Origin: Methanosalsum natronophilum | GTDB lineage: Archaea > Halobacteriota > Methanosarcinia > Methanosarcinales > Methanosarcinaceae | NCBI RefSeq assembly: GCF_024808815.1 | Contig: NZ_JANUCS010000018.1 | Coordinates: 1 to 34,884 of the forward strand | DNA: 34,884 bases | Direction of reading: 5' to 3' | In this document: positions 3,946-34,365 of the stretch, piece by piece | Position numbering within the stretch: the stretch's first letter is position 1 | Layout of the letters: each line of letters opens with the position of its first letter | The notes under the pieces: model-generated | What the model was told of the DNA's origin: nothing | Seen by the model: only the letters and a program-made list of their open reading frames with translations | Databases searched by the model: none | Made by a program: the position numbers and the translations under genes

Positions 3946-4196
3946 AAACTCTTCTTCTCACTTTTAGTCAATAAAGTGACTAAGTCTTTATAACATCTTA
4001 ACATGAAATAATAACCTACTCAACCCACTAAATTAAATAATATCAATATTAAAAAACAAACATCTCATACAAGTCTAATTATAAATAAATATATTGTTCT
4101 TTGCTATCTAACAATTCTCAATCTATAAAAAAACAGTTGTATTAAATTTATATACAGTTTGTATGCCTCCTTTTTCTTTAGAAGGGGTAAGTTCGA
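3946..4196. other. AT-rich intergenic stretch
   Basis: Region between the relic end and the RHH-like gene. The last part, around 4140-4165, contains TTTATATAC, a plausible TATA box for the gene at 4197. Nothing else was recognised. Confidence 0.35.
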
Positions 4197-4427
4197 ATGA
4201 ATCATAAGATATGTGCAACTGTGGATAGAAAGACATTAGCAATCCTACATAAAGTAATGGAAGATGAAAAGTGTACACGAAGTCAAGCACTTGATCATAT
4301 CAGTGCATATTATCAGAAAAGGTGTACAGATAAACATGAATTAGATGAGGTCACAGAACATGTTATCCAGAAACTGGGTTGGAACAAGTATCCACCAAAA
4401 CCAACCTATTCATCAAAAAAAAATTGA
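4197..4427 (+). CDS. Small ribbon-helix-helix-like protein
   Basis: 76 residues. The N-terminal half (KICATVDRKTLAILHKVMEDEKCTRSQALDHI, from residue 4) has the strand-helix-helix pattern of CopG/Arc-type DNA-binding proteins: a short alternating strand, then a helix, a turn with TRSQAL, and a second helix. The C-terminal half is charged and ends in a Lys-rich tail (KPTYSSKKN). A TATA-like TTTATATAC lies about 45 bases upstream, and AGGGGTAAG precedes the ATG. It sits next to, but convergent with, the toxin-antitoxin pair, so it may be an orphan antitoxin-like regulator. The family assignment is an inference from the pattern. Confidence 0.6.
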   Translation: MNHKICATVDRKTLAILHKVMEDEKCTRSQALDHISAYYQKRCTDKHELDEVTEHVIQKLGWNKYPPKPTYSSKKN

Positions 4428-4448: not shown

Positions 4449-4721
4449 TCAAGATTGGTATTTACGATAGATTGTTTTACGATTACCAACTTCTACAATA
4501 AATATCAACATTTTATTGTTTTCGATTGTTAGGATGACTCTATATCCTCCAACCCGGTGAGAATATATAGGCTGTTTACCTATACCTTTAAGTCTTTTTA
4601 TGTTACTATATGGATCGTTTTTCAGTTCAGTTAATGAATTGATTATGTCCTCAATTACAGTTTCAGGTAGTTTTTTCAACTGTTTCAGTGATTTGTTTGT
4701 ATAGATTACTTCGTAGCTCAC
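4449..4721 (-). CDS. RelE/ParE-family toxin
   Basis: 90 residues matching the RelE fold: YEVIYTNKSLKQLKKLPETV at the N-terminus, then the helix hairpin, DPYSNIKRLKG, the central strand YSHRVGGYRVILTIENNKMLIFIVEVGNR and the C-terminal KTIYRKY. The conserved Arg in RVGGYRV and the basic/Tyr C-terminus correspond to RNA-contacting residues of RelE-type ribosome-dependent mRNA interferases. The gene starts with GTG at 4721, overlapping the antitoxin stop by four bases (GTGA), so the two are translationally coupled in the usual antitoxin-first order. Confidence 0.9.
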   Translation of the reverse strand: MSYEVIYTNKSLKQLKKLPETVIEDIINSLTELKNDPYSNIKRLKGIGKQPIYSHRVGGYRVILTIENNKMLIFIVEVGNRKTIYRKYQS

Positions 4722-4948
4722 AGTAAACCAAGCTCTTTTTTGACCTCATCTTCACTATATGTCCTGCCCATTTTGATGTCTTCTAAAGCTTCTTCAATGC
4801 CTTGAATAGCTTCATCACTTAGTTCATCCTCATCAAGTGCCATGCTGGTTAATCTCTCTATCACTGAATTAAAGGATTCTTTTGGGTGTTTTTTTATAAG
4901 TTTAAGTTTTTCTTTTGTTTGTATATTCACACAGATAGTAGTTGACAT
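4718..4948 (-). CDS. Antitoxin of the RelE-type pair
   Basis: 76 residues from the ATG at 4948; this start is chosen because AAAGGAGGAT sits five bases before it, whereas the upstream alternative at 4975 has no ribosome site. The N-terminus (STTICVNIQTKEKLKLIKKHPKESFNSVIERL) has the strand-helix-helix form of a ribbon-helix-helix DNA-binding domain similar to DUF7557-type antitoxins. The acidic C-terminal half (DEDELSDEAIQGIEEALEDIKMGRTYSEDEVKKELGLL) is the expected toxin-wrapping region and keeps the motif "G+.YS.EEV..ELGL" common in archaeal antitoxins. It is followed directly by the toxin gene. Autoregulation is likely through the repeated TATCTATAG sites upstream. Confidence 0.88.
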   Translation of the reverse strand: MSTTICVNIQTKEKLKLIKKHPKESFNSVIERLTSMALDEDELSDEAIQGIEEALEDIKMGRTYSEDEVKKELGLL

Positions 4949-4988
4949 TTTAATCCTCCTTTGCACCAATTGCATAGATGTTATGACA

Positions 4989-5930: not shown

Positions 5931-6716
5931 TCAAATCTCAGTTATTTTTTTAGAATATTGCATATAATGTTGAAACAGTTCATGTCCCCATTTCAATGAT
6001 GTGGAACTAGTGCACAGCATTCTTTTAGAAGAAATTTCTCCGTTTTTCTTAAACAAACTCAGGATAAGAGAATGATCATTGAAAGAAACATATTGAAAGT
6101 TCAACTCTTTTGAACATACAAAAACATTTACCTTCTCATACCCAATAACTTGTCTGAAATCTTCGTATCTCTTCCTCTTCAATACATCAAAAAGATATTC
6201 TGATATTAGAAAACTGACATTCACACCATTATTTACTAGATCGTCAACAAGTTTTGGGAAGTTTGGATGCATGAACGTTGTCATTACATAATGTTCAGAT
6301 GAATTCATTGAATCTTCATGGAAGTCAGGATTGAGCTCATACATTTCAGTTATGTGTGGTATTATACACTTACATTCTCCAAGATAACCAACTTTTTTGA
6401 ATAATGATCTTGGTATGAAATCTAGATCACATTCACCCCAAAAATTAATATCAATACCAAAAATATCAGTTTTTGCTAAAAGAGACTGTATATCTTCCAC
6501 TAATATCTCACCAATAGAAGATAGTTTGTACATATCATTGAGGTGTATTATTAGATGATAGTCTTCCAGAATTCTAAGTTGGGGTAACAAGGCTTGTCTT
6601 GTAGTACCTAACTCTTTTAAAAGATAATCTGTTTCTTTTGGCCCCTCTTTTAAAATTAAGAGTACTTTCTTTCGTTTTTCGGATAGGAACAGAACATCTA
6701 ATAAATCTTTTTTCAT
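5931..6716 (-). CDS. Msr/FilR1-type winged-helix regulator (DUF1724)
   Basis: 261 residues. An N-terminal ArsR-like winged helix (about 8-75: LSEKRKKVLLILKEGPKETDYL, then TTRQALLPQLRILEDYHLI and SIGEILV) is followed by the FilR1 middle domain (DUF1724) with INFWGECDLDFIPRSLFKKVG, a SLILSLFKKNGE strand and the typical end LKWGHELFQHYM. The family includes the Methanosarcina Msr regulators of methyltransferase genes. It is one of three in this window (others at 32710 and 33574), all on the minus strand, but this copy has no methyltransferase neighbour in view. A GTGGGGT site lies just before the ATG. The palindrome AAGTAT-TTT-ATACTT upstream coincides with the TATA box, suggesting autoregulation. 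Target and effector are unknown. Confidence 0.88.
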   Translation of the reverse strand: MKKDLLDVLFLSEKRKKVLLILKEGPKETDYLLKELGTTRQALLPQLRILEDYHLIIHLNDMYKLSSIGEILVEDIQSLLAKTDIFGIDINFWGECDLDFIPRSLFKKVGYLGECKCIIPHITEMYELNPDFHEDSMNSSEHYVMTTFMHPNFPKLVDDLVNNGVNVSFLISEYLFDVLKRKRYEDFRQVIGYEKVNVFVCSKELNFQYVSFNDHSLILSLFKKNGEISSKRMLCTSSTSLKWGHELFQHYMQYSKKITEI

Positions 6717-6742
6717 GACCCCACTTCTGAAAATTGTCCCTT

Positions 6743-6757
6743 AAGTATTTTATACTT
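6743..6757 (-). promoter_or_regulatory. Promoter palindrome of the Msr-like gene at 5931-6716
   Basis: AAGTAT-TTT-ATACTT is a perfect inverted repeat; on the minus strand it reads AAGTATAAAATACTT, whose centre is a good TATA box about 34 bases before the ATG. A regulator bound here would block TBP. The site is inferred from symmetry and position only. Confidence 0.45.
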
Positions 6758-6889
6758 GCTTTTAACACTTATCTCACTTCATTTAAAGGTATTACTGTAA
6801 TTCGAATTTTTTATACTAACCGAGATAAGAAGTTAGATAAGTAGAACAATGCTGTTTAAAATTATAAAGGTTTTGAAAGTTTATTACAT

Positions 6890-7055
6890 TCATTTAATTA
6901 ATGTGAAAATAGGTTAAATACGGTAAATACTATAGGTATATTTGTAAGGAACTAACCTATCCAAAAATGATGATAATGGGTTGGGGTAATGGGAGAAAGG
7001 ATTAGGAGTTAATAGAATATCGGTGGGTTTGAAGCCGATATTTCATTATTCCTAT
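6890..7055 (+). ncRNA. Candidate structured RNA, copy 1
   Basis: The G-rich strand of the conserved core can form helix A (ATAGGTTA 6909-6916 with TAACCTAT 6953-6960, perfect), enclosing an inner AAATAC/GTATATTT stem. It can instead form helix B (AACT-CCTA-TCC within 6950-6962 with GGA-TAGG-AGTT within 6999-7010), which shares bases with helix A. A third hairpin, AATATCGG 7016-7023 with CCGATATT 7035-7042, is followed by a T-rich stretch. AAATTATAA at about 6859-6867 could be the TATA box. Exclusive helices followed by a terminator-like hairpin resemble a riboswitch, but no known class was recognised and expression is not shown. Confidence 0.4.
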
Positions 7056-7080
7056 TCACTAATTTTAGTTAAAAACGTGT

Positions 7081-7193
7081 TCAGAAATGGTTCACTAAAC
7101 AATAGTTTAAGCCAAATAGTTGTACAGTATCATTATTCACGGGACTGTGTATGATGATCTGGCCACGTTTCATGATAGGTATTCTTTTTGCAT
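7081..7193 (-). pseudogene. Duplicated 3' end of herA
   Basis: Minus-strand reading gives KRIPIMKRGQIIIHSP followed by VNNDTVQLFGLNYCLVNHF and a stop, matching the last 35 or so residues of HerA (KRIPFLKRGQMIIHSP, then DNSDTVELIGLKHCLVNHF). No start or upstream coding sequence accompanies it, so it is an inert product of the 346-bp duplication. The frame has survived, and several changes are conservative. Confidence 0.85.
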
Positions 7194-7273
7194 GAAGTCA
7201 CATCAGAACATTCTAAAATCATTTTTTATCTATTATTTCAAACTGAACTGTAAAAAAAGTCAATAACCTGGAT
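7194..7273. other. Spacer between the two repeat copies
   Basis: 80-base AT-rich unique spacer that separates the two copies. No coding or structural signal was seen. Confidence 0.5.
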
Positions 7274-7619
7274 AATGCTGTTTGAAATTATAACGCTATT
7301 GAAAGTTAATTACATTCATTTAATTAATCTCAAAATAGGTTAAATACGGTAAATACTATAGGTATATTTGTAAGGAACTAACCTATCCAAAAATGATGAT
7401 GATGGGTTGGGGTAATGGGGGAAAGGATTAGGAGTTAATAGAATATCGGGGTTAGAGAAGCGATATTTTATTATTCCTATTCACTAATGTTAGTTAAAAA
7501 ATGTGTTCAAAAATGGTTCACTAAACAATGTTTTAAACCAATTAGTTCTACAGTATCACTATTATCGGGACTGTGTATGATCATTTGACCACGTTTCAGG
7601 AAAGGTATTCTTTTTTCAT
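7274..7619. repeat. Direct repeat copy 2 (346 bp), overlapping the herA 3' end
   Basis: Second copy of the repeat. Its right 113 bases are the functional end of herA, and its left 233 bases lie downstream of the herA stop. This copy is the likely original, because it is joined to an intact gene. Confidence 0.95.
7316..7480 (+). ncRNA. Candidate structured RNA, copy 2
   Basis: Repeats all helices of copy 1. Helix A and helix B are unchanged in sequence. The last hairpin is AATATCG (7442-7448) with CGATATT (7461-7467): the stem is kept while the loop has changed and the closing pair differs. It is followed by TTTATTATT. If transcribed on the plus strand, it would run towards, and be antisense to, the end of herA. 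Alternatively it is part of the herA 3' untranslated region on the minus strand. Confidence 0.4.
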
Positions 7620-9354
7620 ATTTCTTAGGGATCTGTAACGATGTTATCGCGGACTCGTTGTTCAAGTTAAGTACAATCTTAGTATTGATCTGTTTCATCA
7701 CAGTATCAGCTATATCCTGAGGATCCTGTGTTATAAACAGGAGTCCTAATGATTCTTTTCTACCCTGTCTTGCAGCATCAGTGAACTTGCCTACAATAGC
7801 TCGTGCCTGTATCGACCTGGCATTGGATAGGTATCGATGTGCTTCATCGAGTGTAAGAATAATTGGTGTGTCCTTGATAACCTTTTCACCATTGTTCTTG
7901 AGTTTATTGTCCACTATCAGTGTCATTAATGTCAGTATCAGGATATCCCTTGATTTTGTGGATGAGATGTATTCTGTAGGGAACAAACTTACCTGTCCCG
8001 GTACAAATATCTGGTCAAGGATATCAGTGATCTTATCTGCACCTTGATCGAAGACGTTCCTGTAATGATTATTATCGATACGTCGTACAATACTGTCATA
8101 AGTGGCTTCATGGATAATATTCGTATCTTCAGTATACTCTTTCTTGTTATCAATATCAGTAACAAAATCAATGAAATCATTATATGAATAATTACCCTGT
8201 TTCGAGTTGAAATAATCGTTTATTAACCTTTCAAGCCCGTATATTTGGTTTTCGTTCATTTCTGCCCCGTGTAATAACCAATGGTTCGATCTTACTATCT
8301 CAAACGGAACAGTGAATTCCTTGTTAGATGCCGAGGTTGTAGGAGAATAGGACCGATCATTCCCAATCTTTGCAGTGAATGTCTTTGTTTTCGGGACACC
8401 ACCATGTTCGATCTTAACCGTATTCATCTGATCCACATAATCTTGAGGCATTTCAGGATTATCTTCCTTTATTTGAGAATACTCGTCCTGAGGATCAAGA
8501 ATAACCACACATGGCTGGAATTCGCCTTTGATCGCAGGGTCACGTATACTGTACCTCACATTATCTGAAATGAATTGTCTAATAATGTTCTTACCCACAA
8601 ATGTTTTACCGGTACCTGTAGAACCACATATAAGCGCGTGCCTGAATATGAGCGGTTCACGTGTAGGATCGTTGTTCTGTAAATAATAAGATACATTATA
8701 TGGATATGTAGTAGTCTCTATCATCTCACCACCAACACTTACATACCCTAAAAAAATACCTTCGTTTGGTATATTAAGACCAGTTTGAATACTGTCAATG
8801 TCCTTTACATGTGTTGCAACAGTGTTAGGTTTTGGGATTTTATCAACTAATCTTCTTGCGAGTTTAGTACCAGTCTCGTTATAAAGTATACATAAAGGTT
8901 CAAGGTATGCTAGGAGCTTAAATTCCTCTTCATCAAGTGTAGTATTCTCAACACGGATCGAATGCAGTTCATTAGCGTCATCTGATGGATATTTCTGCAT
9001 GTACGTCAATTCTTTGACACGTGCAAACATTTTCTCATTGTTTGGGTAAGGTACTACCAAATAACTTCCGATCTTGATATTATCACGATTTTCTGCCCTA
9101 ACATAGATTATAACAACCGATTCATTCTCAGTGATTCTGAGATTCTCCGGACCCGTGACAAGAGTACCTAACGAACTTGATCCCGAATTAGATACTTGTT
9201 TGGGTACCTGAGTACCTTGCATGAACATATCAGTAGCAATATCATCCTCTTGATCTTGAGTATCATTGTTAGGTTTATTAGCCGACACAAAATCGTCACC
9301 CTGTGCAAACGCCAATATTTCATCTTCGCTATATTCTTCATTCGTATGATCCAT
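7507..9354 (-). CDS. herA: HerA bipolar DNA helicase/translocase
   Basis: 615-residue hexameric ATPase that drives DNA through the HerA-NurA complex during end resection. Seen: an N-terminal HAS-barrel-like region after an acidic leader (about residues 1-200), Walker A GSTGTGKT near 244-251, Walker B IILTLDEAHRYL near 498, the arginine-finger region DAARQGRKESLGLLFITQDP near 530, and a C-terminal end KRGQMIIHSP. The length is normal for the family (500-620). The ATG at 9354 has GGTGAT five bases upstream and overlaps the end of nurA by 17 bases, so translation is coupled. It is the last gene of mre11-rad50-nurA-herA. Its final 113 bases lie within the 346-bp duplication. Confidence 0.96.
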   Translation of the reverse strand: MDHTNEEYSEDEILAFAQGDDFVSANKPNNDTQDQEDDIATDMFMQGTQVPKQVSNSGSSSLGTLVTGPENLRITENESVVIIYVRAENRDNIKIGSYLVVPYPNNEKMFARVKELTYMQKYPSDDANELHSIRVENTTLDEEEFKLLAYLEPLCILYNETGTKLARRLVDKIPKPNTVATHVKDIDSIQTGLNIPNEGIFLGYVSVGGEMIETTTYPYNVSYYLQNNDPTREPLIFRHALICGSTGTGKTFVGKNIIRQFISDNVRYSIRDPAIKGEFQPCVVILDPQDEYSQIKEDNPEMPQDYVDQMNTVKIEHGGVPKTKTFTAKIGNDRSYSPTTSASNKEFTVPFEIVRSNHWLLHGAEMNENQIYGLERLINDYFNSKQGNYSYNDFIDFVTDIDNKKEYTEDTNIIHEATYDSIVRRIDNNHYRNVFDQGADKITDILDQIFVPGQVSLFPTEYISSTKSRDILILTLMTLIVDNKLKNNGEKVIKDTPIILTLDEAHRYLSNARSIQARAIVGKFTDAARQGRKESLGLLFITQDPQDIADTVMKQINTKIVLNLNNESAITSLQIPKKYEKRIPFLKRGQMIIHSPDNSDTVELIGLKHCLVNHF

Positions 9355-10636
9355 TAGTTATCACCGTACTCTCCATTCCACCCCATCGATGGGAATTATA
9401 ATCATATACTCTATTCTTCCTATCCACCAGGTCCCTTAATCTGTTAGTCTCATATCGACTTATCTTTGCGAGATGGTCAGCATTATTTAGTACCTTTGGT
9501 ATCGAACCCGTTAATGCCATGTCTGAGAGAATCTGTCGAGTTATTCTTGTTCTAGTAGCAGGGTCCTTGACAAAGCCGTATAAGGATTCTATCTTGAACA
9601 GGGAATGTGTACGAGGAATGTATGCCATGAAAAAAGCAATATCATAATCTTCGGGTGGATATAATGGTGTAATATTATCAGTATCTAGGAGTGGTGATGA
9701 TCTATCAACTGAAGAACCGTATATCCGATTCTCTTGCCTGAACCATCCTGTATAAGTAATTCCATTCTTCATTATACTAGTATCATCACATGAGTTCAGT
9801 AAGTATTGGAACAGTTGTGCATCATTTGACCAATTATTCATGTCAGACATTGTATCCGACCTCATGATCTGAGAATCTGTTGGGTTTTTCACAAAACCTA
9901 GTACGGGTACATTGAGTTTGAATGCCTTTTCCATGATATGAACATAGTTTTTCAGTACTCTCTGTGTCACTGGTTCATATCTTATCATCATTGAAAGACC
10001 ACTATCAACTACCCAATACATCAATTCCTTTGGATATATTGAACCGTCAATGATAAACATGCTATTGAATGCAAGTTTATCTAATAACCATAACATATGT
10101 TCAGATTCAGTATATTTCATATTGATAGTGTGCACTATATCGTTAATATGCCGTGTGACCATCGTACCACTTACAGTAAGTTTCATTGACCTCGCATAAC
10201 CCTTATCATAATAATTCCAACCAGTATCAGGACTAATATTAAAATCGTTATTTGGTACATAGATCAATGAACTGATCGTTCTGTACCTCTCAAGCTCTTT
10301 TCTAACAGGTACACTGCTAATAAGACCATGGCATATATCAAAAACTGCACCATTAGCGTACGTTATAGGATTAATTGTACCACTATCTATCGCATAAAGT
10401 TCATTGAAATGAGACATATATTCATCTGCGAGATCATGTCTGTGATCCTTATACAACATACTCTCATCATCGATCAATTTGATCAGAGTATCATTTTTGA
10501 CCGTAGTCTCCCTGATTTTACTTATAATATCATTGATATTATCCTGTTTATGGCTCGTATCGTATTCTGAGACCAGGGTATCAATATCCCCGATGATCCG
10601 TGTTACGTGGTCCATATGTGTTGGGTCGAGTACCAT
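9338..10636 (-). CDS. nurA: NurA 5'-3' nuclease
   Basis: 432-residue nuclease, partner of HerA. The RNase H-like NurA fold is indicated by the first acidic motif AIDSGT near residues 79-84 followed by a strand (GAVFDICHGLISS), a second metal-binding motif in FIIDGSIYPKELMYW near 194-208, and the C-terminal region with DIAFFMAYIP. In the complex, NurA degrades the 5' strand after Mre11-Rad50 has opened the end. The ATG at 10636 has AAGGAA about 13 bases upstream. The gene lies 68 bases after rad50 and overlaps herA. NurA sequences diverge strongly between lineages, but the operon position makes the call firm. Confidence 0.93.
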   Translation of the reverse strand: MVLDPTHMDHVTRIIGDIDTLVSEYDTSHKQDNINDIISKIRETTVKNDTLIKLIDDESMLYKDHRHDLADEYMSHFNELYAIDSGTINPITYANGAVFDICHGLISSVPVRKELERYRTISSLIYVPNNDFNISPDTGWNYYDKGYARSMKLTVSGTMVTRHINDIVHTINMKYTESEHMLWLLDKLAFNSMFIIDGSIYPKELMYWVVDSGLSMMIRYEPVTQRVLKNYVHIMEKAFKLNVPVLGFVKNPTDSQIMRSDTMSDMNNWSNDAQLFQYLLNSCDDTSIMKNGITYTGWFRQENRIYGSSVDRSSPLLDTDNITPLYPPEDYDIAFFMAYIPRTHSLFKIESLYGFVKDPATRTRITRQILSDMALTGSIPKVLNNADHLAKISRYETNRLRDLVDRKNRVYDYNSHRWGGMESTVITNGSYE

Positions 10637-10704
10637 AGTGATATAACATTCCTTATCTAATTGATTAGCTTGATCGATTGGTTATTATGATTTAGTTTAG
10701 GTAT

Positions 10705-13700
10705 TTAAATGAACAATTGTGGTCTGGAGTGGGTCATGGGTACCATATGCGAGATATTAGTGGATGGGTCCTTATCCACTCGATATACCGAATCTGCAGC
10801 ATCTATTAAAGTATCATCGTGTGTCACCACTATGATCTGATTTACGCCAAGAGATCTCATGGTATCGAGTAACTGTATTAATTGTTTTATGTGTTCCCTA
10901 TCAAGAAACGTTGTAGGTTCGTCCATTATAATGGGTGGTAATGATTCACTTGATTCATGACCAAAACCGTGTGCTAATAATCTATAGATGGCACACCTGA
11001 AAACTATGTTCAGGATAGCTCGTTCACCACCACTTAACTGGTTAGGACTTAATGAACTACCTTCCTTATCATATATCTCAATATGATAATCATTATCTAG
11101 AAGTACATGAGAATATGCATTATCAACTGACATGAGATTAAACATCTCATTTATGTACTTGTTCAATATATTGATATTCTTTGTCCTGATCTCAGTTCGG
11201 GTCTGCATATAAGTTTCATCTAATGTCTCGATATCACTCAGAACAGATTCCAGGTATTCTTTTTTCTGATCCAGTACATCAATGTTATCTTGTAATGACT
11301 TTAAATGTTCAATCGTTGTATGCAGGTGACCTAATTTTTGCTGAATTTCATTATTCTCTTGATTCTTTTGCTCGATCTTATCGTCCAATTTACCTAACGA
11401 GTTTTTCAGCTCTGCCAGTTTTGACTGAACTTGTTCTATCTGAATATCACCCAATTTAGTTTCAAGTTTCTTGACAGAATCCTGATATTCTTGGATTTGT
11501 CTTGTTAATAGATGGATAGTTTCCTGGTTAGCTGTGATCTTTTGTGTTCGTTCATGAATATCGCGTTTATATGAATCGATCTGTACCAGATCGGTCTTTA
11601 TCTGCTTAAGTACACTTAACCTATATCGTTGCGTCTCATATTCCTGTTCAATCATTTCCTTCTCTTCATTCAATTTAGATTGAGTGGACCTGAGTTCGGT
11701 TATCTTAGCATCGATCACTTGTATCTCTTTTTTAAGTGATTCGATCTTATCGTGACCTTTCTGTATAGTTTCATTCAAGGTAGAACGAGTCTTATCTAAA
11801 TACTTGAGTTCTGATTCGATATCTTTGCGGTCCTGATGATCGGTTCGAAGCTGGTCAAGTAGAGATGAATAGGTTTCAAGTTCTGTTTTTAAGGTTTCAT
11901 GTTCAGATCCCAGTTTAGATACTTGTTCTGATACTTCTTCCTTTTGTGTTTTTAGCTTGGATACAGATTCATCTATACCTTTTATTTTCTCATTCAATTC
12001 AGTTTTTCTTTGTATACTCTCATCATGGGACTTTTTCAATGTAGTTACCTTTTCTTTAAGATGTGAAATGGATGTTTCAATTGTGTTCAGACTAGATTCA
12101 AGTGGTGGAATGTTCGTGTCATATATCGATAGAGTTTCTTTTACAGTTTCATACACACTTGTATTATTATCCAATGCGGTATTGACACGCTCGATCTTCT
12201 CATTGATCTCAGCTACTTCTTTATTCTTAGTATCGAGCTCGTTATGAAAATGAGTTTCATCGATCTTTTGTTCACATGTAGGACATATGCCTTTATTGAG
12301 TAACGATTCGTCTTTATCTATTTGTTCTTTTAAGAAGGTTAAACGTGTCTCGAACTGTTTCTGGTACCCCGCGAGTTCGAGACGTTTATCAGCAAGGTCT
12401 GTTAGAACAGAGTTCAGGTCAATACGAGTGAATTGTTGTGGTAGCTCAATATCAATACCAATATCTTCAAGTTTGGATCGAATAGTTTCCAGGCATGACC
12501 CAATATCCTTTTTAGTACGATCTAATTCTTCTATTCTCATTTCGATCTTGGATTCGGTTTCCTTCAATTGTTCCTGAATATTATGGATAGTTTCATCTAG
12601 AGTATTGAGTTGGTCCACATATTGTTCCCTGGAATTCTCGGAGTTCCTGATCTCATAATCAATAGATTGGGCTTTGGTACGTTCATCATTCAATGAAGTG
12701 GTTAGAGATTGGAGCTGGTCATTTAATTCTTTCACATGGTCCTCAAGGTCAGTGATGGAGTCCATACCAGCTTTATCGAAATTGTTTATTAGTTTTTCTC
12801 GTACAAGTTTCAACTTTTCCTGATACTCATCCATTTTCGAGCTTATACGTGATATCTCATCTAAATGTTCAGTTTCTTGTTCCTTGATATCAGTAATATC
12901 AGATTCGTATTTTTCTTTTAATTGAATATTAGAATTAATTGTATCAGAAACGGAACTATGCTCATTTTCCTTTTTTTTCAGGTGAGTGTAAAGATCAGTT
13001 ATACGTTCATTCTGAGATTCAAGGATATTCTCTATGTTTTCCATATCTGGACGAGTTTGGAGTTCAGCTTTTTCCTGGAGTTGGGTTATACTCGTATCCA
13101 GTTCATTGATATTTTGTCTAAGTGAATCTATACTGGTACTTAATTCCTTGATCTCAGTATCGATCTTTTGTTTTTGTTTTTTAGTATTCTCGATCTTGGT
13201 CTCGAGTTCAGTTTTGTCATTGGAATACGATTCATAGTCCGATATTTGTGCATTACGTACATTTATTCGGTCAATTAACTTGGTTCTCATATTATGAGAC
13301 TGATCAAGCTCGGATTTGATATGAGATTCCTGTGTTTTCAGGGTACTTAGAGTCTTATAGGGATCAGTTTCTTCTATTTGCTCCATTTCATTTGATCTAT
13401 CTTTTAAAAGTGTATTGGTGTCCCTTAACAGACGATTAATACCAGTAGTTGCATCCTTTAATCTGCTGTGATACTCTTCAAGTTTCCCGATCTGTAACAG
13501 GTCATCTATCATTTTCTGTCGTTCTGTAGGAGCTGCATTGATCAGGATATCGATCTCACCTTGTCTTATATAGACACAGTTTCTGAACGAATCCTCGTCC
13601 ATATTGAGTATCTGGCATATCTTTTCATACGTCATACCAAACTGTTCTGCAAAGAACGAGCCGTCTCGTTTGAGTAAAGATTTTTTATTACTAGCATTAC

Positions 13701-13986
13701 CATTCTTACCGATCGTATATACTCTTTCAATACTATAATCATGACCAAAATGTGTGAAATCCAGTTTACAGCTACCCTCATTACTGGAATTGTTGATAAT
13801 GTCACTTATCTTCCTATCCTTATCAACGATCGCTTTATTCCCATACAATGCAATAAAGAGAGCATCCAATGAACTCGATTTACCACTCCCGTTTGGGCCT
13901 GTGATAACTGTGATCCCGTTATTGAACTCGATATTCTGGTCCCTATAACTCCTGATATTATTGATACTGATAAAATTGATCTTCAT
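10705..13986 (-). CDS. rad50: Rad50 DNA double-strand break repair ATPase
   Basis: 1093-residue SMC-like protein of the Mre11-Rad50 complex. The N-terminal ATP-binding half contains Walker A GPNGSGKSSSLDALF near residues 33-47. Long coiled coils flank a zinc hook, CPTCEQK, near 567, almost exactly in the middle. The C-terminal half has the ABC signature LSGGERAILNIVFRCAIYR, Walker B PIIMDEPTTFLD and the H-loop VVTHDD. It is longer than crenarchaeal Rad50 because of the longer coiled coil. It starts 11 bases after the mre11 stop, so the two are translated from one message. The complex binds and tethers DNA ends and controls Mre11 nuclease activity by ATP hydrolysis. Confidence 0.98.
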   Translation of the reverse strand: MKINFISINNIRSYRDQNIEFNNGITVITGPNGSGKSSSLDALFIALYGNKAIVDKDRKISDIINNSSNEGSCKLDFTHFGHDYSIERVYTIGKNGNASNKKSLLKRDGSFFAEQFGMTYEKICQILNMDEDSFRNCVYIRQGEIDILINAAPTERQKMIDDLLQIGKLEEYHSRLKDATTGINRLLRDTNTLLKDRSNEMEQIEETDPYKTLSTLKTQESHIKSELDQSHNMRTKLIDRINVRNAQISDYESYSNDKTELETKIENTKKQKQKIDTEIKELSTSIDSLRQNINELDTSITQLQEKAELQTRPDMENIENILESQNERITDLYTHLKKKENEHSSVSDTINSNIQLKEKYESDITDIKEQETEHLDEISRISSKMDEYQEKLKLVREKLINNFDKAGMDSITDLEDHVKELNDQLQSLTTSLNDERTKAQSIDYEIRNSENSREQYVDQLNTLDETIHNIQEQLKETESKIEMRIEELDRTKKDIGSCLETIRSKLEDIGIDIELPQQFTRIDLNSVLTDLADKRLELAGYQKQFETRLTFLKEQIDKDESLLNKGICPTCEQKIDETHFHNELDTKNKEVAEINEKIERVNTALDNNTSVYETVKETLSIYDTNIPPLESSLNTIETSISHLKEKVTTLKKSHDESIQRKTELNEKIKGIDESVSKLKTQKEEVSEQVSKLGSEHETLKTELETYSSLLDQLRTDHQDRKDIESELKYLDKTRSTLNETIQKGHDKIESLKKEIQVIDAKITELRSTQSKLNEEKEMIEQEYETQRYRLSVLKQIKTDLVQIDSYKRDIHERTQKITANQETIHLLTRQIQEYQDSVKKLETKLGDIQIEQVQSKLAELKNSLGKLDDKIEQKNQENNEIQQKLGHLHTTIEHLKSLQDNIDVLDQKKEYLESVLSDIETLDETYMQTRTEIRTKNINILNKYINEMFNLMSVDNAYSHVLLDNDYHIEIYDKEGSSLSPNQLSGGERAILNIVFRCAIYRLLAHGFGHESSESLPPIIMDEPTTFLDREHIKQLIQLLDTMRSLGVNQIIVVTHDDTLIDAADSVYRVDKDPSTNISHMVPMTHSRPQLFI

Positions 13987-13997
13987 TATAGAACACC

Positions 13998-15182
13998 TTA
14001 TAGGAAACTGTTTAATGTCTGACTTGATACACGAGGTTTTTTCTTTGGTTTAGTTCCGATCTTCTCTAACTGTTCAGCGATTCGAGTACTGACCTCGTCA
14101 TCAACTTTGCTTTTCGGGATCTCTAAGTTGCGTACAATATAATCCACTTTCTGGCCGCCTTCTGTAAGATGTAATTTGTTGAGTTTTTGTTGTACGGCTT
14201 CATCGGGTTCCAGGAACACTAAGGTTTGATTAATGTCCTGTTCCATATATTCGTTCATTACACGTTTATCATTGACTCGCGATACTACGGCACCTTTACT
14301 TAATAGAAATTCATCGATCTCAGAATGGGATAAGGTCGAGCTCGAATTACCATCTATGCTTAGTATCACTACTGAACCTTCGATCTCGTTGATCCTTTCA
14401 CGTACTTTATCAAAGATATACTGATCCGGTCGTTCAATGTGGTCGTTAAGTGTTATAGAGATGTAGACGAAGTTGCGTGTAGGTATACGTATCCTGGTAA
14501 TATCGATCCTACCATTATCAGTATCAATGAAGTTATATGTCCGTTCCTCATGCTCAACACTGGAATGACGTTCAGTACTACCACTATATGTCACTATAGT
14601 ATCACCGATACGTGTTGAAGTATATTTGTGATAATCACCTAGTAAGAATAGGTCTATATTGAATGGGAATTCTTTTAACATCAGGTCACAGTTGAATGTG
14701 CCCTGTGGGACATGAGCTGCTAATTGATGCATTGTAAGAAATGTGTATTTAGTGCCCTGGACTGGTTCTTCTATATTTAAACACTGTTCATCCACTTTTG
14801 TCTTTGGGACATAATCAATACCATATATAGCAATGTCATCTAAATAATATGGTTTAATTGATAGCCTTTTAGCAATACCGATCTGTTCATAGAGGTCAAG
14901 CCATTGATAGTCTTGTTTACTCTCATGGTTACCAACAATACCAAGGAATGGTATATCATGGTCACTCAATTTCGAGAGAATATGCATTGTTCTTAATATA
15001 TCTGTTAATGGCGGATTCCTCATATCAAAAAGATCACCCGCGTGAACTATAGCATCAACATTATGTTCTATTGCATCATCTACAACCTTTTCAAATGCTA
15101 GAAAGAAATCATCTTTTCGCACTTCACTGTTATACTGTCTATAACCAAGATGGGTGTCTGCTATATGAATAATTTTAGCCAT
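13998..15182 (-). CDS. mre11: Mre11 DNA double-strand break repair nuclease
   Basis: 394 residues from the ATG at 15182; a GTG nine bases upstream is possible, but AAGTGA lies at a good distance before the ATG. All five phosphodiesterase motifs are visible: HIADTHLGYRQ, HAGDLF, GNHES, TMHQL and LGDYHKYTS. They bind two manganese ions for exonuclease and endonuclease activity. A capping domain and a Rad50-binding tail follow; the end (KKKPRVSSQTLNSFL) resembles the C-terminal helix of archaeal Mre11. First gene of mre11-rad50-nurA-herA, so the operon promoter should be just upstream of about 15200. Confidence 0.97.
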   Translation of the reverse strand: MAKIIHIADTHLGYRQYNSEVRKDDFFLAFEKVVDDAIEHNVDAIVHAGDLFDMRNPPLTDILRTMHILSKLSDHDIPFLGIVGNHESKQDYQWLDLYEQIGIAKRLSIKPYYLDDIAIYGIDYVPKTKVDEQCLNIEEPVQGTKYTFLTMHQLAAHVPQGTFNCDLMLKEFPFNIDLFLLGDYHKYTSTRIGDTIVTYSGSTERHSSVEHEERTYNFIDTDNGRIDITRIRIPTRNFVYISITLNDHIERPDQYIFDKVRERINEIEGSVVILSIDGNSSSTLSHSEIDEFLLSKGAVVSRVNDKRVMNEYMEQDINQTLVFLEPDEAVQQKLNKLHLTEGGQKVDYIVRNLEIPKSKVDDEVSTRIAEQLEKIGTKPKKKPRVSSQTLNSFL

Positions 15183-15246
15183 GTATTTCACTTATTTCTG
15201 CTGGAATATATTTCTTAGCCAAAAAATTAATTGATATCTCTATTTG

Positions 15247-16105: not shown

Positions 16106-16918
16106 TTAGCTCAGGTATAGTTCACCTTTCACATCAGAATAACATTGCTCAATAATCGAGCTAGTACCCCTAATTTCTTCTACTTTAAAGTCAAACTTTG
16201 CTGCAAACTGATCAATCTTTAGATCAAATTCAGTTTCATAGTTGATCCCTGTATCAATTTTAATCAAAGTTTTGACTCCCATCATTTTGAAAAACTTTTT
16301 CTTTTTTTCATCACATTTGATACTTTTTTCAATATCTCCGAACAATATATCCCAGTTTGATGACCACATTGGTGTAAAGAATAAGGCATCTGGATATTGC
16401 TTTAAAAGTGAATGATATTTTTCATCTCCACCAACTACAGCTGATATGCAGTCTGTAACTTGTTTAGTGCAACTCATTTTACTTTCGCCTAAAATGTGGA
16501 CATTAACATCAAGGTCATAATATGTATTGTCGAGATTGTTAAATGCTTTCCCGCAGGAACCATAGAATAATAGGATGCTATCAACATAAGGTTCTTGTTC
16601 TTTAATTGTTTTGTACGTAGTGTCCTTTAGTTTCTTTGGAGAAGAATGAAGATGCTTTGGTTGGATCAAAATAACTACATTAAATTGATTTGTACCATAG
16701 CAACCTTGTTCATGTCTTGACCAAAAAGTTTCTTTAGGAAGTATTTCAGGCACAATGCCAACATTCTTTACTTTTTCAACAAAATCTGTAATTTCTCCAT
16801 TATCTATGATTACAGTGCTTCCTACACCCCTATCATTAGCTAATACATGTACAATTTCATCTTCCATTATTTTACAGCCTAATAAAAACAAAAAACGGTT
16901 ATGAATTGTTTTTTTCAT
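16106..16918 (-). CDS. DUF1638 family protein
   Basis: 270 residues. Family features are seen: FLLGCKIMEDEIVHVL at the N-terminus, SILLFYGSCGKAF in the middle (near 114-126), DDCISAVVGG-like DCISAVVGGDEKYH, and FFTPMWSSNW. DUF1638 proteins are common in methylotrophic methanogens and are often encoded near corrinoid methyltransferase genes; their biochemical role is not established to my knowledge. Several conserved Cys residues (in LGCKIM, GSCGKA, MSCTK and DCISAV) suggest metal or thiol chemistry. GAGGT seven bases before the ATG at 16918 supports the start. The gene is divergent from the pRiA4b ORF-3-like gene, with a 316-base intergenic region that holds inverted repeats. Confidence 0.85.
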   Translation of the reverse strand: MKKTIHNRFLFLLGCKIMEDEIVHVLANDRGVGSTVIIDNGEITDFVEKVKNVGIVPEILPKETFWSRHEQGCYGTNQFNVVILIQPKHLHSSPKKLKDTTYKTIKEQEPYVDSILLFYGSCGKAFNNLDNTYYDLDVNVHILGESKMSCTKQVTDCISAVVGGDEKYHSLLKQYPDALFFTPMWSSNWDILFGDIEKSIKCDEKKKKFFKMMGVKTLIKIDTGINYETEFDLKIDQFAAKFDFKVEEIRGTSSIIEQCYSDVKGELYLS

Positions 16919-24585: not shown

Positions 24586-24656
24586 TATAATTATAATTAT
24601 AATTTAAAATTTAAAGTTTTCCAATTTCTTAAAAACCCTTTTTTTAAAAATTTAAG

Positions 24657-24694
24657 TTAATTAATTAATTAATTAATTAATTAATTAATTAATT
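24657..24694. repeat. (TTAA)n tetranucleotide tract
   Basis: About nine and a half TTAA units without interruption, overlapping the stop codon and last residues of the coiled-coil gene. Slippage here would change the C-terminus (KYN end) of that protein. Confidence 0.95.
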
Positions 24695-25987
24695 ATATTT
24701 AATTTCAATATTTTGCTCGAATGCAGAATTTACATTTGAGTCTAATTCTTGTTTCGTATCTTCAAGTTTCTGTTCGAGATGATGTAAATGTGACGTAGCG
24801 TTTTCTATATCTTCCTGAACCGACTTTAAGTTAGTCTGTTTTTTACCAATATCAGTTTCGATTCGTTTCTTCTGATTATAAACACTCATCTGATCAAGTT
24901 CATTTTCCAGTTCTTCTATATTTGAATCAAATGACCTCATCTTCTCACAAAGCTCAGATAGTTCATTAGTACTCTTCAGGCGTTCAAGTTGTTCCAGTGT
25001 CTTTTCTTTTTTCTTATCCTTAAGACCAAGGGAACCATCCTCAATACGTTGTATCAATTCATTGTATAAAGGTTCTAAATCAAATTCCATTGCACTCACT
25101 GGATCGTTTACAAGTGTATCGACCATGGACCTCTTCTCTGGTGAAAGAGAATACATTTTATTATCATCCTGTTTCTGCATTCTTGAAAGTGCTTTTGAGA
25201 CCGGGGTGAACATACGGTCAATGTCAGAAGCTACAGAGAATTTCTGTGATTTCAAGTGTTCAATTTCCTTCTCAAGCTCTTTTGCTCGTGAATATTCTGG
25301 ACCGTTGACCAGTTCTTGGAATTCTGATTCCTTTTCTTTAACCCCTACCTCGATATTTGCCTTTTTGAGTTCGAGGTTTGAAATGGCTGATCTTGACTCT
25401 TCGATCTCTTTCATCAACTTATTCACATAATCCATTTCTTCAAAAATATCATTGATGGTATCTAGTTTGTTCTTAGAGTCCTTTATTGTAGAAAAGAGGG
25501 AACTCAACTGTTCGTGCATCCGATCAAGATCGTCGTCGAGTTGTCGATACTCTTCTGGGTAAAGAGCCTTTGCATATATCATACTTTTCCTGGCATTATC
25601 CAGGAATGTATTCATGGTAGCTTTAGTATCAACATAAAAACTATAAGAGCCCTGTAATGAAATTGTTTTTGGGATACTGATCTTTTCACGAACCATTTTC
25701 AAATTATCCACTATATTATCCCTGTTAGAGTCACCTACTTTCTCCATCCTCTTATCAGCAGTTTCTACGGGCTCAGCGTCCAATAACTGTTCCCGGTCAC
25801 GATCAAGGTCATTTAATATTGTCTCGATTTCAGTATAGATATCTTTGATAAGGGGTCGGAGTTCTTCAAGCTCTTTTTCACTCTCCTCCTTACACCATTC
25901 CCCAAGTTGTGAAAAATCTAGAGTGAGTGATTCTGCCTCTTCTTTTTTTTGACCAAACAGTTTCTTTATGAACTCGAACATACTCAA
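24689..25987 (-). CDS. Coiled-coil protein, unknown function
   Basis: 432 residues (ATG 25981, giving MFEFIKKLFGQKKEE, is an alternative). Globular part at about 25-150 with WCKEESEKELEELRPLIKD and a segment ISIPKTISLQGSYSFYVDT. Then two long coiled-coil regions (about 155-235 and 345-425) separated by a break with SLSPEKRSMVDTLV. No membrane segment or Walker motif. The heptad pattern with many E, K, L and S suggests a structural or scaffold protein. I do not recognise a named family. Its stop overlaps a TTAA repeat. It is convergent with aIF1A. Confidence 0.85.
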   Translation of the reverse strand: MSMFEFIKKLFGQKKEEAESLTLDFSQLGEWCKEESEKELEELRPLIKDIYTEIETILNDLDRDREQLLDAEPVETADKRMEKVGDSNRDNIVDNLKMVREKISIPKTISLQGSYSFYVDTKATMNTFLDNARKSMIYAKALYPEEYRQLDDDLDRMHEQLSSLFSTIKDSKNKLDTINDIFEEMDYVNKLMKEIEESRSAISNLELKKANIEVGVKEKESEFQELVNGPEYSRAKELEKEIEHLKSQKFSVASDIDRMFTPVSKALSRMQKQDDNKMYSLSPEKRSMVDTLVNDPVSAMEFDLEPLYNELIQRIEDGSLGLKDKKKEKTLEQLERLKSTNELSELCEKMRSFDSNIEELENELDQMSVYNQKKRIETDIGKKQTNLKSVQEDIENATSHLHHLEQKLEDTKQELDSNVNSAFEQNIEIKYN

Positions 25988-30012: not shown

Positions 30013-30408
30013 TCATTGAGTTTCTTGCATTTCCTTTTTATGTTTATTTAATGCCATCTCAATAGTAATTTTCATATCTTCTTCTTTAAAGGGTTTTAAT
30101 ATATATCCATAAGGATTGGTCTCTTTAGCTCTTAAGATAGTCTCTTCATCAGAATAAGCTGTCAAGTAAATGATTGGTATATTGTGTTTTTGACGTATCG
30201 TGTCAGCTGCCTCAATACCCGTCATATCCCCTTTAAGCATAATATCCATTAAAATAATATCGGGATATGTAGTTGCAGCTTTATTAATAGCGTCCTGTCC
30301 CGTCTTGGCTACAGCGTGTACTGAGTAACCTAATTTCTTGAGCCTTTTTTTTATCTCAAAACCTACAATGTTCTCATCTTCCACCACAAGTACTTTAATT
30401 TTACTCAT
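30013..30408 (-). CDS. CheY-like response regulator
   Basis: 131 residues, single receiver domain: VLVVEDENIVGFEIKKRL at the N-terminus (acidic pair E/D), phosphoacceptor Asp in DIILMDIMLKG near residue 55, Thr in IIYLTAYSDE near 81-88 and Lys in YILKPFKEEDM near 105. No output domain, so it acts by phosphotransfer or protein contact. It lies 21 bases after the sensor kinase gene and is its likely partner. Confidence 0.95.
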   Translation of the reverse strand: MSKIKVLVVEDENIVGFEIKKRLKKLGYSVHAVAKTGQDAINKAATTYPDIILMDIMLKGDMTGIEAADTIRQKHNIPIIYLTAYSDEETILRAKETNPYGYILKPFKEEDMKITIEMALNKHKKEMQETQ

Positions 30409-30429
30409 ATGTATCAGAACTCTATTAAA

Positions 30430-32673
30430 TTATACTTTATTTATCTCCCTAAAAGTTATCTTGAACTGAGTACTTCCATCATCTGATTCCAGATCTATAG
30501 TACCATCTAGCTGATCTACCAATGTATTAACCAATTGTAACCCTAGAGAATCGGTGTTCCTGAAATCCACATGTGATGGAAATCCTTTTCCATCGTCGCT
30601 CACCAACAATAAATAATTATCCTCTTTGCTTTTAAGTACAATATCTATTTGTCCATTCTCAGCTGGATCAAAAGCATGTTTTAACGAATTGGATACCAGT
30701 TCATTTACTATCATTCCTAAGGGGATAGAAGTATCTATACTTAAATAAACTTTTTCAATATCCAGATTAAGCTGGATCTTACCATTACCTATATTGTACG
30801 CTTCCAGTAGATATACTCCAAGTTTATTCACATAATCCGTGAAATCAACACTCCTCATATCCTCGGATTTATATATCTCTTCATGGATCAGAGCCATTGA
30901 ACGTACCCTATTCTGACTGTTTTTAAACGATTCTATCACTTCAGGGTCACTGAAATGTTCAGATTCAAGATAAAGCATACTAGAAATTACCTGTAAATTA
31001 TTCTTTACTCTATGATGTATTTCTTTCTTGCGTACCTTTTCAATGTTCAATAAAGCATCTTCGGCTTGTTTTCTGTCAGTGATATCGAGTATTATACCTT
31101 GCAAGTATGTGACAGTACCGTTTTGGTCAAGTCGTAATAGAGTTCGTTCATCAACCCACCTAACATCACCAGACTTGGTAATGATCCTGTACTCCGACGT
31201 GAAATATTCGGGAATTGTATCAATTATTTTGTTCTTTTGAACAGACTTTGTACCATTATAATATGTATGTTGGGCCACAAGTTCGTCAAGGTCTTTTTCT
31301 ACTTTATGTAAATCTTCTGGATGAACAATATCAGCATATAACAATTTACCTGATGTGAATTCTTCGGGCTGGTATCCGAACTGAGTAATATTGTCTGAAA
31401 CAACTTCAACTGGCCATTTATCTTCAGGTAACCACAGGAATACCACTACCTGACTGCTGTTAATGACTACCCGCATTTCTTGCATTGTCTTGTTAGATTC
31501 CTTTAATTTACTAGCGTAGTCTTCTAGTATTGAGAGTATTTCATTCAGTCCTATAGGAATATCCTTAAAATCAATAGCTACATCAGTATCTGCACGTGAA
31601 TCCAGTTTCCCTTTGGACACATCTGTTGAAACTTTACCAAAACTGTCCACAATATTTTTTATAGGACGAGTTATGGATAATGCTATCAGGTATCCCATAC
31701 TACCCATGAAAATGACTGCTAATGTTGAAATGATGATAAGTTTATCCCTCAAACCAATTGCATCAGCAAGCATTTCGTCTTTAGGAATTGATAGAATAAA
31801 TGCAAAGTTCCCCATATCTACAGGTTCGTAGAATATTATTGATTTCTTACCAGTTATTGGATCGTTAACTTCTATATGACCTGATATTCCCTCATTTATA
31901 TCAGCTAACAGCATGTAAACAGGTTCATCATGCAAGTCCATGATGTTCGTGGTACCAATAGCATTCTTGTCCTGAGGATGAGATAGGAGAGTCCCAGAGT
32001 TACTGACAACCATAGCATACCCGTTCTCAAGTACCTGTATGTCATGAACTGAGTCATCTATATAATCTAATGAAACATCAACTCCGGCAATGCCTTTAAA
32101 CTCATCATCTACAATAATAGGTGATACAAAACTTACAATAAGTTCACCTTGGTAAAGATAAGGTTCTGTGACAACATCGGTCCTCATTTGTTTTGGTAAT
32201 TGGTAATAATCTTCAGTATCGTAGTCTATCAGAGGTTCAACATCTACCTCACCACCGATACGGTTCCAAAATGGGAGAAAACGGCCAGTTTCATCATGAT
32301 AATCTGCATTAACATATTCCAGATCATTACCATCAAAAGCATCCGGTTCATATCCCACATAAACACCAATTAGTCGAGGGTTTTCTCTCAATATATGCTC
32401 CAATTTCTGGTTGATCTCAAACCTATCATCTGATGAGTATCGTTCTAAACTTCGAGCTACAGTATTCGGTATTGCCATATTCTCCCGCATATCCGCATTG
32501 AACTGGTTCGCATAATTCTGGGAGATCTCAGTGGACCTCGAATACTCGATATCTATCTTTTGAGTCGTGACAATTGATACGATAATAGCAGTAGATGACG
32601 CCATTATGAAAAGAACAGCTATTGTAATGTATAATATAAGTTTAAGTTTAAGTGGTGTCTCATCCCAATTCAT
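30430..32673 (-). CDS. Membrane sensor histidine kinase (dCache-HAMP-PAS-HisKA_2)
   Basis: 747 residues. First membrane helix at about 12-36, an extracellular double-Cache domain at about 37-305 (IGVYVGYEPDAF, RTDVVTEPYLYQGELIVSFVSPI, GIAGVDVSLDYI and NGYAMVVSNSGTLLSHP are typical), second membrane helix at about 310-336, a HAMP region (ITRPIKNIVDSF), a PAS domain (about 400-545, ending GIILDITDRKQAEDAL), and HisKA_2 ([19 protein letters not shown]) with a HATPase (NELVSNSLKHAF, DDGKGF). It probably senses a small extracellular ligand. GGAAT lies close to the ATG at 32673. Confidence 0.95.
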   Translation of the reverse strand: MNWDETPLKLKLILYITIAVLFIMASSTAIIVSIVTTQKIDIEYSRSTEISQNYANQFNADMRENMAIPNTVARSLERYSSDDRFEINQKLEHILRENPRLIGVYVGYEPDAFDGNDLEYVNADYHDETGRFLPFWNRIGGEVDVEPLIDYDTEDYYQLPKQMRTDVVTEPYLYQGELIVSFVSPIIVDDEFKGIAGVDVSLDYIDDSVHDIQVLENGYAMVVSNSGTLLSHPQDKNAIGTTNIMDLHDEPVYMLLADINEGISGHIEVNDPITGKKSIIFYEPVDMGNFAFILSIPKDEMLADAIGLRDKLIIISTLAVIFMGSMGYLIALSITRPIKNIVDSFGKVSTDVSKGKLDSRADTDVAIDFKDIPIGLNEILSILEDYASKLKESNKTMQEMRVVINSSQVVVFLWLPEDKWPVEVVSDNITQFGYQPEEFTSGKLLYADIVHPEDLHKVEKDLDELVAQHTYYNGTKSVQKNKIIDTIPEYFTSEYRIITKSGDVRWVDERTLLRLDQNGTVTYLQGIILDITDRKQAEDALLNIEKVRKKEIHHRVKNNLQVISSMLYLESEHFSDPEVIESFKNSQNRVRSMALIHEEIYKSEDMRSVDFTDYVNKLGVYLLEAYNIGNGKIQLNLDIEKVYLSIDTSIPLGMIVNELVSNSLKHAFDPAENGQIDIVLKSKEDNYLLLVSDDGKGFPSHVDFRNTDSLGLQLVNTLVDQLDGTIDLESDDGSTQFKITFREINKV

Positions 32674-32709: not shown

Positions 32710-33492
32710 TTAAACTTTACTTGAATTAGAAATGAAATGTGAGAACAGGTCATTACCCCATCTGATCGATCTTTGGTCATACCCCACAACATCTTTATGG
32801 TCATAATTGCCATTCTTATCAAATAAACTTAAAAGAAAAGCCTTCTCCGAAACTACAATGCCGGGAACTTGGCGTTTACTGGCATTCACAAAAATATTAG
32901 AGTGCTCTGATTGCTTTATCGGTTCAAGCTTATCCGTATATTCTTCTTCTAGTCTATTAAGCACACAATCTTTAAAAATGAGATTAAGTTTTGTACCATT
33001 TGATGCTAACCTTGAAAAGATGTTGATATATTCGGGATGGAAAAAAGGTAACATTGCATTGATATGTTGGCAGTTACAAAGTTCATTGACAAACTCTTCA
33101 TCAAGTTCAAATATTCGGTCAAGAGCTGGGTCTAACATTTCACAGTCACCGATCTCTCCCATCCTTGTAAGTAAATTAAGTGGAATTGAATCAAAGTCAC
33201 GGGATTTCCAATAATGGTAATCTGATTCGAAAAGGTCAACTATTTTAATTAAAGGGATCATATTCTCAGTCAATGCCTTACCTATATATGAAAGACGATA
33301 AACATGATCATCATCGTTCTGAACAACAAGCCCCTCTTCTTTCAGTTTCTTCATAGGAGAAATAAGTGGTCTCCAACTACACCCAAATTCTTGCTTAATT
33401 TCATTTGACGTTTTAGGACCTGTGAGGAGCAGACTTAATATCCGTTTTCTTTTATCTGAGATCCAAATCGTATCACTTAATTCTGAATCCAT
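32710..33492 (-). CDS. Msr/FilR1-type winged-helix regulator (second copy)
   Basis: 260 residues with the same two-domain layout as the gene at 5931: winged helix (DTIWISDKRKRILSLLLTGP, KTSNEIKQEFGCSWRPLISPMKKLKEEGLV), DUF1724 middle domain (YHYWKSRDFDSIPLNLLTRMGEIGD) and terminal RSIRWGNDLFSHFI. GGGGGT lies nine bases before the ATG, and a TATA box (TTTTATATTTATTT) sits about 20-35 bases upstream. It follows another Msr-like gene with 81 bases between, so the two probably have separate promoters. Close to a corrinoid methyltransferase gene, so a methylotrophic target is likely. Confidence 0.9.
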   Translation of the reverse strand: MDSELSDTIWISDKRKRILSLLLTGPKTSNEIKQEFGCSWRPLISPMKKLKEEGLVVQNDDDHVYRLSYIGKALTENMIPLIKIVDLFESDYHYWKSRDFDSIPLNLLTRMGEIGDCEMLDPALDRIFELDEEFVNELCNCQHINAMLPFFHPEYINIFSRLASNGTKLNLIFKDCVLNRLEEEYTDKLEPIKQSEHSNIFVNASKRQVPGIVVSEKAFLLSLFDKNGNYDHKDVVGYDQRSIRWGNDLFSHFISNSSKV

Positions 33493-33573: not shown

Positions 33574-34365
33574 TCATCCCACCTCATGTTTAACACAACT
33601 TCCTTTTTCTTTACAGTGTTCAAATAACTCCTCTCCCCATTTCAAAGCATTTGAATCAAAGCTCATCACAACCTTGTGGTCATAACGACCTAACTTATCA
33701 AAGAACGATATGTAAAGGAACCAGTCAGTTACAGTTACTGTAGGAAAGTTCATGTTTGAATCACAAATGTAAACTGCGCTATTATCAGCTTTAATGATGG
33801 CTTCAAGCTCACTATAATAATCTCTTTGCATTCGCTCGAAAACCTTTCGTGTAAAAACTAGAGATATGTTAGCATCATTTTCAATCAACTTTGAGTAAAT
33901 CGAAGGATACGATGGATGAAAATATGCTGCAAAGGACATGACATTATTAGATTTATAGATATTTTCTGTGAACTCTTTTGGCAGTTCGAACAAATGGTTG
34001 ATATCAGGTTCTATTATGAAATAATGTCCAAGGTCTCCAAGACGCTTCAATAGGTGAGGAGGAATACAACTAAGGTCTCTTTCAGTCCAATAATCCCTGT
34101 ATTCTTCAATTACATTAAGGGTGTTTAAAAGAGGTAACATGTTATGCACAATGACCCTACCAGTATCAGTTAAGCTATAAAGATCACCATCTTGGCTTAT
34201 CAGGCCCCAGTCCTTTAATATCTTTACCTGAGGCATCATTGATCTAGAATTAACATTGAGTGCTGCCTTTATCTGATCAATATCCCTTGGACCTTCTGTG
34301 AGAAGTAAAAGCAAGTTCCTTCTTTTTTCCGATATCCAGATAGTGTCACTCAAAGCCAGTTTCAT
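33574..34365 (-). CDS. Msr/FilR1-type winged-helix regulator (third copy)
   Basis: 263 residues: winged helix (SDTIWISEKRRNLLLLLTEG, RDIDQIKAALNVNSRSMMPQVKILKDWGLISQDGD), DUF1724 domain (YRDYWTERDLSCIPPHLLKRLGDLGHY) and the end ALKWGEELFEHCKEKGSCVK. It shares about half of the winged-helix residues with its neighbour at 32710, so the pair likely arose by tandem duplication. AGGTG is nine bases before the ATG. Transcribed away from the corrinoid protein gene at 34794 across a 428-base region that holds palindromes. Confidence 0.9.
   Translation of the reverse strand: MKLALSDTIWISEKRRNLLLLLTEGPRDIDQIKAALNVNSRSMMPQVKILKDWGLISQDGDLYSLTDTGRVIVHNMLPLLNTLNVIEEYRDYWTERDLSCIPPHLLKRLGDLGHYFIIEPDINHLFELPKEFTENIYKSNNVMSFAAYFHPSYPSIYSKLIENDANISLVFTRKVFERMQRDYYSELEAIIKADNSAVYICDSNMNFPTVTVTDWFLYISFFDKLGRYDHKVVMSFDSNALKWGEELFEHCKEKGSCVKHEVG

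Follow-up and report, generated by a model that had tools for sequence, protein, structure and literature searches.

Downstream of herA lies a duplicated element in which a non-coding core differs less between the two copies than the coding sequence that was duplicated with it. Does this uneven divergence reflect selection on the core, and if so, selection for what? We examined the question in the window, i.e., the whole stretch of 34,884 nucleotides that was analysed, and in the genomes of relatives.

Uneven divergence of a duplicated segment

A repeat search and a global alignment identified two direct copies (6837-7194 and 7263-7620) with a start-to-start offset of 426, as the original prediction of direct repeats downstream of herA had proposed. 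Both copies are housed in the 790-bp intergenic region between herA and the gene of a FilR1_middle regulator. The features of this region are as follows.

5931-6716, minus strand: transcriptional regulator with a FilR1_middle domain, next gene past the duplicated element
6837-7194: left copy of the duplicated segment, with left flank, conserved core and decayed herA 3' fragment; 357 sites aligned with 7263-7620
7081-7194, minus strand: decayed second copy of the herA 3' end; 38 codons counting the stop, 11 amino-acid differences from HerA
7263-7620: right copy of the duplicated segment, with the functional herA 3' end and the region downstream
7507-9354, minus strand: herA (HerA/DUF87 ATPase), last gene of the co-directional mre11-rad50-nurA-herA cluster

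The two copies aligned over 357 bases, with 40 substitutions and 2 single-base indels. The segment matched these two places only in the 2.03-Mb assembly. A mobile repeat (MITE- or REP-like) was rejected, as dispersed copies were absent from this assembly and the duplication takes in gene sequence. Homology between the spacer 7194-7262 and the stretch 6760-6836 was not significant (p = 0.07-0.23), which neither supports nor excludes an exact tandem duplication.

Divergence between the copies varied strongly from block to block. In the left flank (6837-6907) 12 of the 71 sites differed, and in the herA tail (7076-7193) 16 of 118. The core (6908-7023) differed at only two of 116 sites, both A/G (6975 and 6994). 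It is followed by a short block (7024-7036) with seven differences at 12 sites plus one indel, and by a block (7037-7075) with two differences at 39 sites plus one indel. The contrast between the core and the rest of the duplicated segment was highly significant (Fisher p = 2e-5). In permutations, a 116-nt window with two differences or fewer had p = 0.00065 and a 120-nt stretch with two or fewer had p = 0.00035. The binomial probability of so few differences in the core (2/116 or fewer), taken at the rate of the flanks, was about 2e-6 to 8e-6. Hence, even divergence across the segment is ruled out, and the unevenness is not due to chance. The alignment and block counts that the original prediction had called for thus gave the uneven pattern, and its counts by eye (2 in the core, about 15 in the herA part, about 7 in the left flank) were accurate.

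The left edge of the core is sharp: positions 6903 and 6905 differ, and are followed by 69 identical bases. Low divergence was also found further out, in the AT-rich region 6883-6902 to the left of the core (0/20 differences; P = 0.04 at the flank rate) and in the right arm past the loop of a predicted hairpin, called hairpin A below (1/27; P = 0.075 by the same measure). The conserved unit comprises about 6906-7060, interrupted only at this loop. The near-identity of the core as drawn originally (6903-7023) therefore holds, but its end at 7023 does not, since the unit runs to about 7060.

The duplicated gene end provides an internal yardstick. The left herA tail has accumulated 11 amino-acid changes in 37 codons and synonymous changes in four further codons, and has gained no stop. 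The HerA C-termini of relatives match the right copy, including conserved positions M, D, S and E. By this comparison of sequences the left tail is a fragment that drifts, and its divergence sets the neutral rate of a single lineage at about 14%. Neutral cores could drift in both copies, so that 2/116 is more striking still.

Predicted fold and class of the conserved unit

When read on the minus strand, both copies are predicted to adopt the same fold, in which an open, C-rich linker (35-40 nt) joins two hairpins.

6906-7060, minus reading: left sRNA candidate, with hairpin A, C-rich linker and hairpin B; folding z-score -3.0 to -4.6
6998-7060, minus strand: hairpin A, left copy; arms 7060-7036 and 7022-6998 around a loop (7035-7023) that diverges between the copies
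6963-6997, minus strand: C-rich linker, left copy; predicted unpaired, 35 nt, or 40 nt with the outermost pairs open
6907-6962, minus strand: hairpin B, left copy; arms 6962-6952/6917-6907 with an inner stem at 6943-6938/6930-6925, then UUUU
7332-7485, minus reading: right sRNA candidate, starting 22 nt past the herA stop codon; z-score -3.0 to -3.3
7424-7485, minus strand: hairpin A, right copy
7333-7388, minus strand: hairpin B, right copy

The differences between the copies follow this predicted fold. Hairpin B shows none, and both core substitutions fall in the C-rich linker. The divergent block 7024-7036 (12-13 nt) coincides with the apical loop of hairpin A, beyond which the far arm (7037-7057) is conserved again. 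The arms of hairpin A differ at one of 42 positions and the loop at seven of 12 (p = 3e-5; scoring the loop by minimal gapped events raises this to p = 0.009). Each of the 38 pairs on the minus strand is kept in both copies, and the stems show a single change, from G-U to A-U. Moreover, the minus strand of segment 6901-7055 had a folding z-score of -4.64, the lowest among the 464 segment-strands in the 34.9 kb. Other low z-scores in the window, mostly intergenic, were obtained at 24601-24755 on both strands (-3.9 and -3.3) and at 4051-4205 on the plus strand (-3.8).

Fold stability and conserved pairing point to an RNA but fall short of proof. The comparison of the two near-identical sequences yielded no compensatory pairs, i.e., no covariation, and outside the loop paired and unpaired columns were equally conserved (p = 0.6).

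Several other roles were considered for the conserved unit. A coding role was rejected, as a 12-codon plus-strand open reading frame has two amino-acid changes between the copies and a minus-strand open reading frame is without ATG in the right copy. At the gathering threshold, Rfam families gave nothing in 6717-7506, and the whole window yielded two tRNAs only. The plus strand contains one AUGAUGA, similar to a C box (RUGAUGA), but the D-box motif CUGA is absent from both strands of 6906-7060, and a C/D box sRNA was rejected. An intrinsic terminator was likewise rejected: none was found in 6600-7700, and hairpin B has an AU-rich stem followed by UUUU only.

Potential promoters were scored with a crude hand-made BRE/TATA matrix. 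On the minus strand, an archaeal BRE/TATA-like site (AAAACCTTTATAAT; 6861-6874) scored 9.7, compared with a 99.9th percentile of 6.6, and predicts a start near 6836. This site probably serves the regulator gene at 5931-6716. It is weaker in the right copy, from which it differs at 6868, 6870 and 6872. With the same crude matrix, no convincing minus-strand promoter was found directly upstream of 7060 or 7485, and no plus-strand site scored in the region. Two further regulators with a FilR1_middle domain lie in tandem elsewhere in the window (32710-33492 and 33574-34365), beside a dCache/PAS histidine kinase and a response regulator (30013-32673 region). The window also contains a small ParE-type toxin gene that overlaps an antitoxin-like gene (VAPB_antitox/DUF7557) at 4449-4975.

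Homologue searches and a possibly displaced repair cluster

A covariance model built from the two copies, as the original prediction had suggested, gave no match at E <= 0.1 in 111 other Methanosarcinaceae genomes, nor with laxer filters in six of the nearest genomes. The assignment of these genomes to the Methanosarcinaceae, with nearest relatives of the Methanosalsum kind, was drawn from gene content, genome sizes and kinship in the searches. In 393 genomes of the phylum it gave one match (E = 0.038; genome G235), as expected by chance over that number of genomes. A DNA search of 60 relatives returned short matches at chance level only. Furthermore, the exact core pattern was absent from the genome contigs and viral contigs searched, and blastn of the core against phages and plasmids gave no match.

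Lack of conservation in relatives that carry herA had been named at the outset as an argument against a conserved function. Taken literally this is what we found, with a match in none of the 111 other Methanosarcinaceae, but it is weak evidence, as herA neighbourhoods differ. The majority of the relatives sampled, both those of the same genus among them, have tRNA-Lys(CTT) behind herA. In the source genome this tRNA gene sits at another locus (G000:C7:47355-47438), with part of the old neighbourhood and without herA; together with its flanks, over 84 bp, it matches the sister species at 100% identity. The herA cluster thus sits elsewhere in the source genome, and the relatives offer no orthologous intergenic region for comparison. 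Because the neighbourhood of the element is missing from the relatives, absence of the core there says little about its function.

The mre11-rad50-nurA-herA cluster itself (7507-15191) is co-directional and 36-50% identical to the version of the same genus, in which rad50-mre11 and nurA-herA are divergently oriented, with tRNA-Lys(CTT) behind them. The repair cluster of the source genome seems, from these arrangements, to have been displaced or replaced. HerA of the window (7507-9354) has a very long branch, placed outside every relative of the family that was sampled and apart from its own genus, which would fit either a foreign origin or unusually fast evolution. A search for its origin by peptide patterns gave no match.

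A putative pair of small RNAs and its alternatives

Which process kept the cores alike? The reading that we favour, with somewhat more confidence than doubt, is that the duplicated core encodes a structured non-coding RNA of ~155 nt, most likely from the minus strand, and has been under selection in both copies as a trans-acting sRNA. A duplication of the herA 3' end and the region downstream would have produced the pair. The second herA tail would have been useless and drifted, while both RNA copies would have stayed under selection, each as a working small RNA acting in trans. The hairpins would give the RNA stability, and the open pyrimidine-rich linker may pair with target mRNAs at purine-rich sequences of the leader or the ribosome-binding site. 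Our search for such pairing covered the start regions of the window genes, where the linker did nothing better than shuffled linkers; for the start of the regulator at 5931-6716 the comparison gave p = 0.29 and 0.44.

The conservation of both copies bears on whether the core acts in cis. A cis role needs one copy only, the right one for herA or the left one for the regulator, and since both were kept, a role for either gene alone is disfavoured and a trans product or gene conversion is left to explain the pattern. The core could still be a DNA element, for instance an operator or binding region of the regulator promoter, or an element for processing or termination at the herA 3' end. The left core indeed lies directly upstream of the good minus-strand BRE/TATA site before the regulator, and the right core starts just behind the herA stop codon. 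We nevertheless consider a cis element unlikely: constraint over about 150 nt is long for an archaeal operator, the promoter-like site itself varies between the copies, and no terminator-like site was found in 6600-7700.

Gene conversion makes no demand on function, as a single recent tract of about 118 bp (6906-7023) could have made the cores uniform. Conversion is generally common where direct repeats lie close together, the sharp left edge of the core fits a tract boundary, and the likelihood of a conversion-block model was only 1.4-1.9 log units below that of the selection model, as compared over two copies. However, only chance would place the end of such a tract within a hairpin and precisely at the loop, the low divergence beyond it in the right arm and in 6883-6902 would need another cause, and the unusual fold stability would be a coincidence. 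Because conversion has to accept that chance ending and ignore the stability signal, we prefer selection on an RNA and hold conversion to be doubtful. The original prediction had left open selection for an RNA or a binding site and gene conversion; the structure tilts this choice towards an RNA, but conversion follows closely in likelihood.

If the core encodes an RNA, it might also be read from the plus strand, against the direction of every gene nearby, for example as an antisense RNA that reaches into the end of herA. Plus-strand folds are stable as well (z = -1.9 in the left copy, -2.9 to -3.0 in the right copy), and the AT-rich conserved stretch 6883-6902 would lie before such an RNA. Yet no TATA/BRE site scores on this strand in the region, the minus strand has the lower z-score in the left copy, and the plus-strand hairpins differ between the copies, whereas the minus-strand fold is identical in both. 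A plus-strand RNA is therefore the least probable of the explanations considered here.

The putative sRNA pair recalls a known pair from a methanogen of the same family. In Methanosarcina mazei, sRNA162 and its paralogue sRNA171 arose by local duplication, are lineage-restricted, and comprise three stem-loops in 191 nt (PMC3510493). The stem-loops of sRNA162, which is located in a 739-bp intergenic region adjoining an ArsR-family regulator, surround a single-stranded linker of 39 nt, and this linker binds the regulator mRNA at its ribosome-binding site (PMC3510493). The pair described here, predicted from sequence, likewise consists of two paralogous intergenic elements with a local duplication and a restriction to one lineage. 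Its linker, predicted to be unpaired, has 35-40 nt, and its 790-bp intergenic region adjoins a regulator, in this case with a FilR1_middle domain. In contrast to the M. mazei pair, it has two hairpins in about 155 nt, its layout relative to the regulator is not the same, and its linker shows no significant pairing with the start of the neighbouring regulator, whereas that of sRNA162 masks the ribosome-binding site of the adjacent ArsR-type regulator. Our covariance model had no match among the other Methanosarcinaceae genomes, which included Methanosarcina. A search for sRNA162 in a Methanosarcina genome (L086 and L087) led to other regulator loci, and sRNA162 itself was compared by its description. 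The candidates resemble sRNA162 and sRNA171 in layout, and look as though they may act in a similar way, without being demonstrable homologues.

Duplicated sRNAs also occur in bacteria, e.g., the Hfq-dependent OmrA/OmrB and PrrF1/PrrF2. These are tandem paralogues as well, with a conserved functional part and a divergent remainder, a likeness for which we claim no sequence relation. Hairpin B, with its internal loop between two stems, is superficially similar to the pocket of H/ACA guide RNAs. For archaeal guide RNAs conservation throughout a family is usual, whereas the core described here lacks it, and it differs from both C/D and H/ACA guide RNAs in having no Rfam match.

We can also imagine a wider role, although the full scenario is decidedly improbable. 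A young, lineage-specific pair of trans-acting sRNAs, born at the 3' end of the mre11-rad50-nurA-herA cluster, might link transcription of the repair operon to a regulon of the C-rich linker sRNAs and to the adjacent FilR1-type regulator, with the right copy released from, or contained within, the herA 3' untranslated region.

If both copies are expressed, methanogens would have a further example of paralogous sRNAs, one discovered from sequence data. The accidental duplication of a gene end served here as an internal neutral clock, and the comparison of a decayed gene tail with a conserved non-coding core could reveal lineage-specific archaeal RNAs that lack homologues for covariation analysis. 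Another duplicated non-coding stretch by a regulator of this kind occurs in a relative of the same family (genome G031), where two 300-bp repeats (L087:13844-14143 and 16590-16889) are 98% identical. One of them lies upstream of methyltransferase and corrinoid-protein genes, the other immediately follows a regulator that belongs to the same family.
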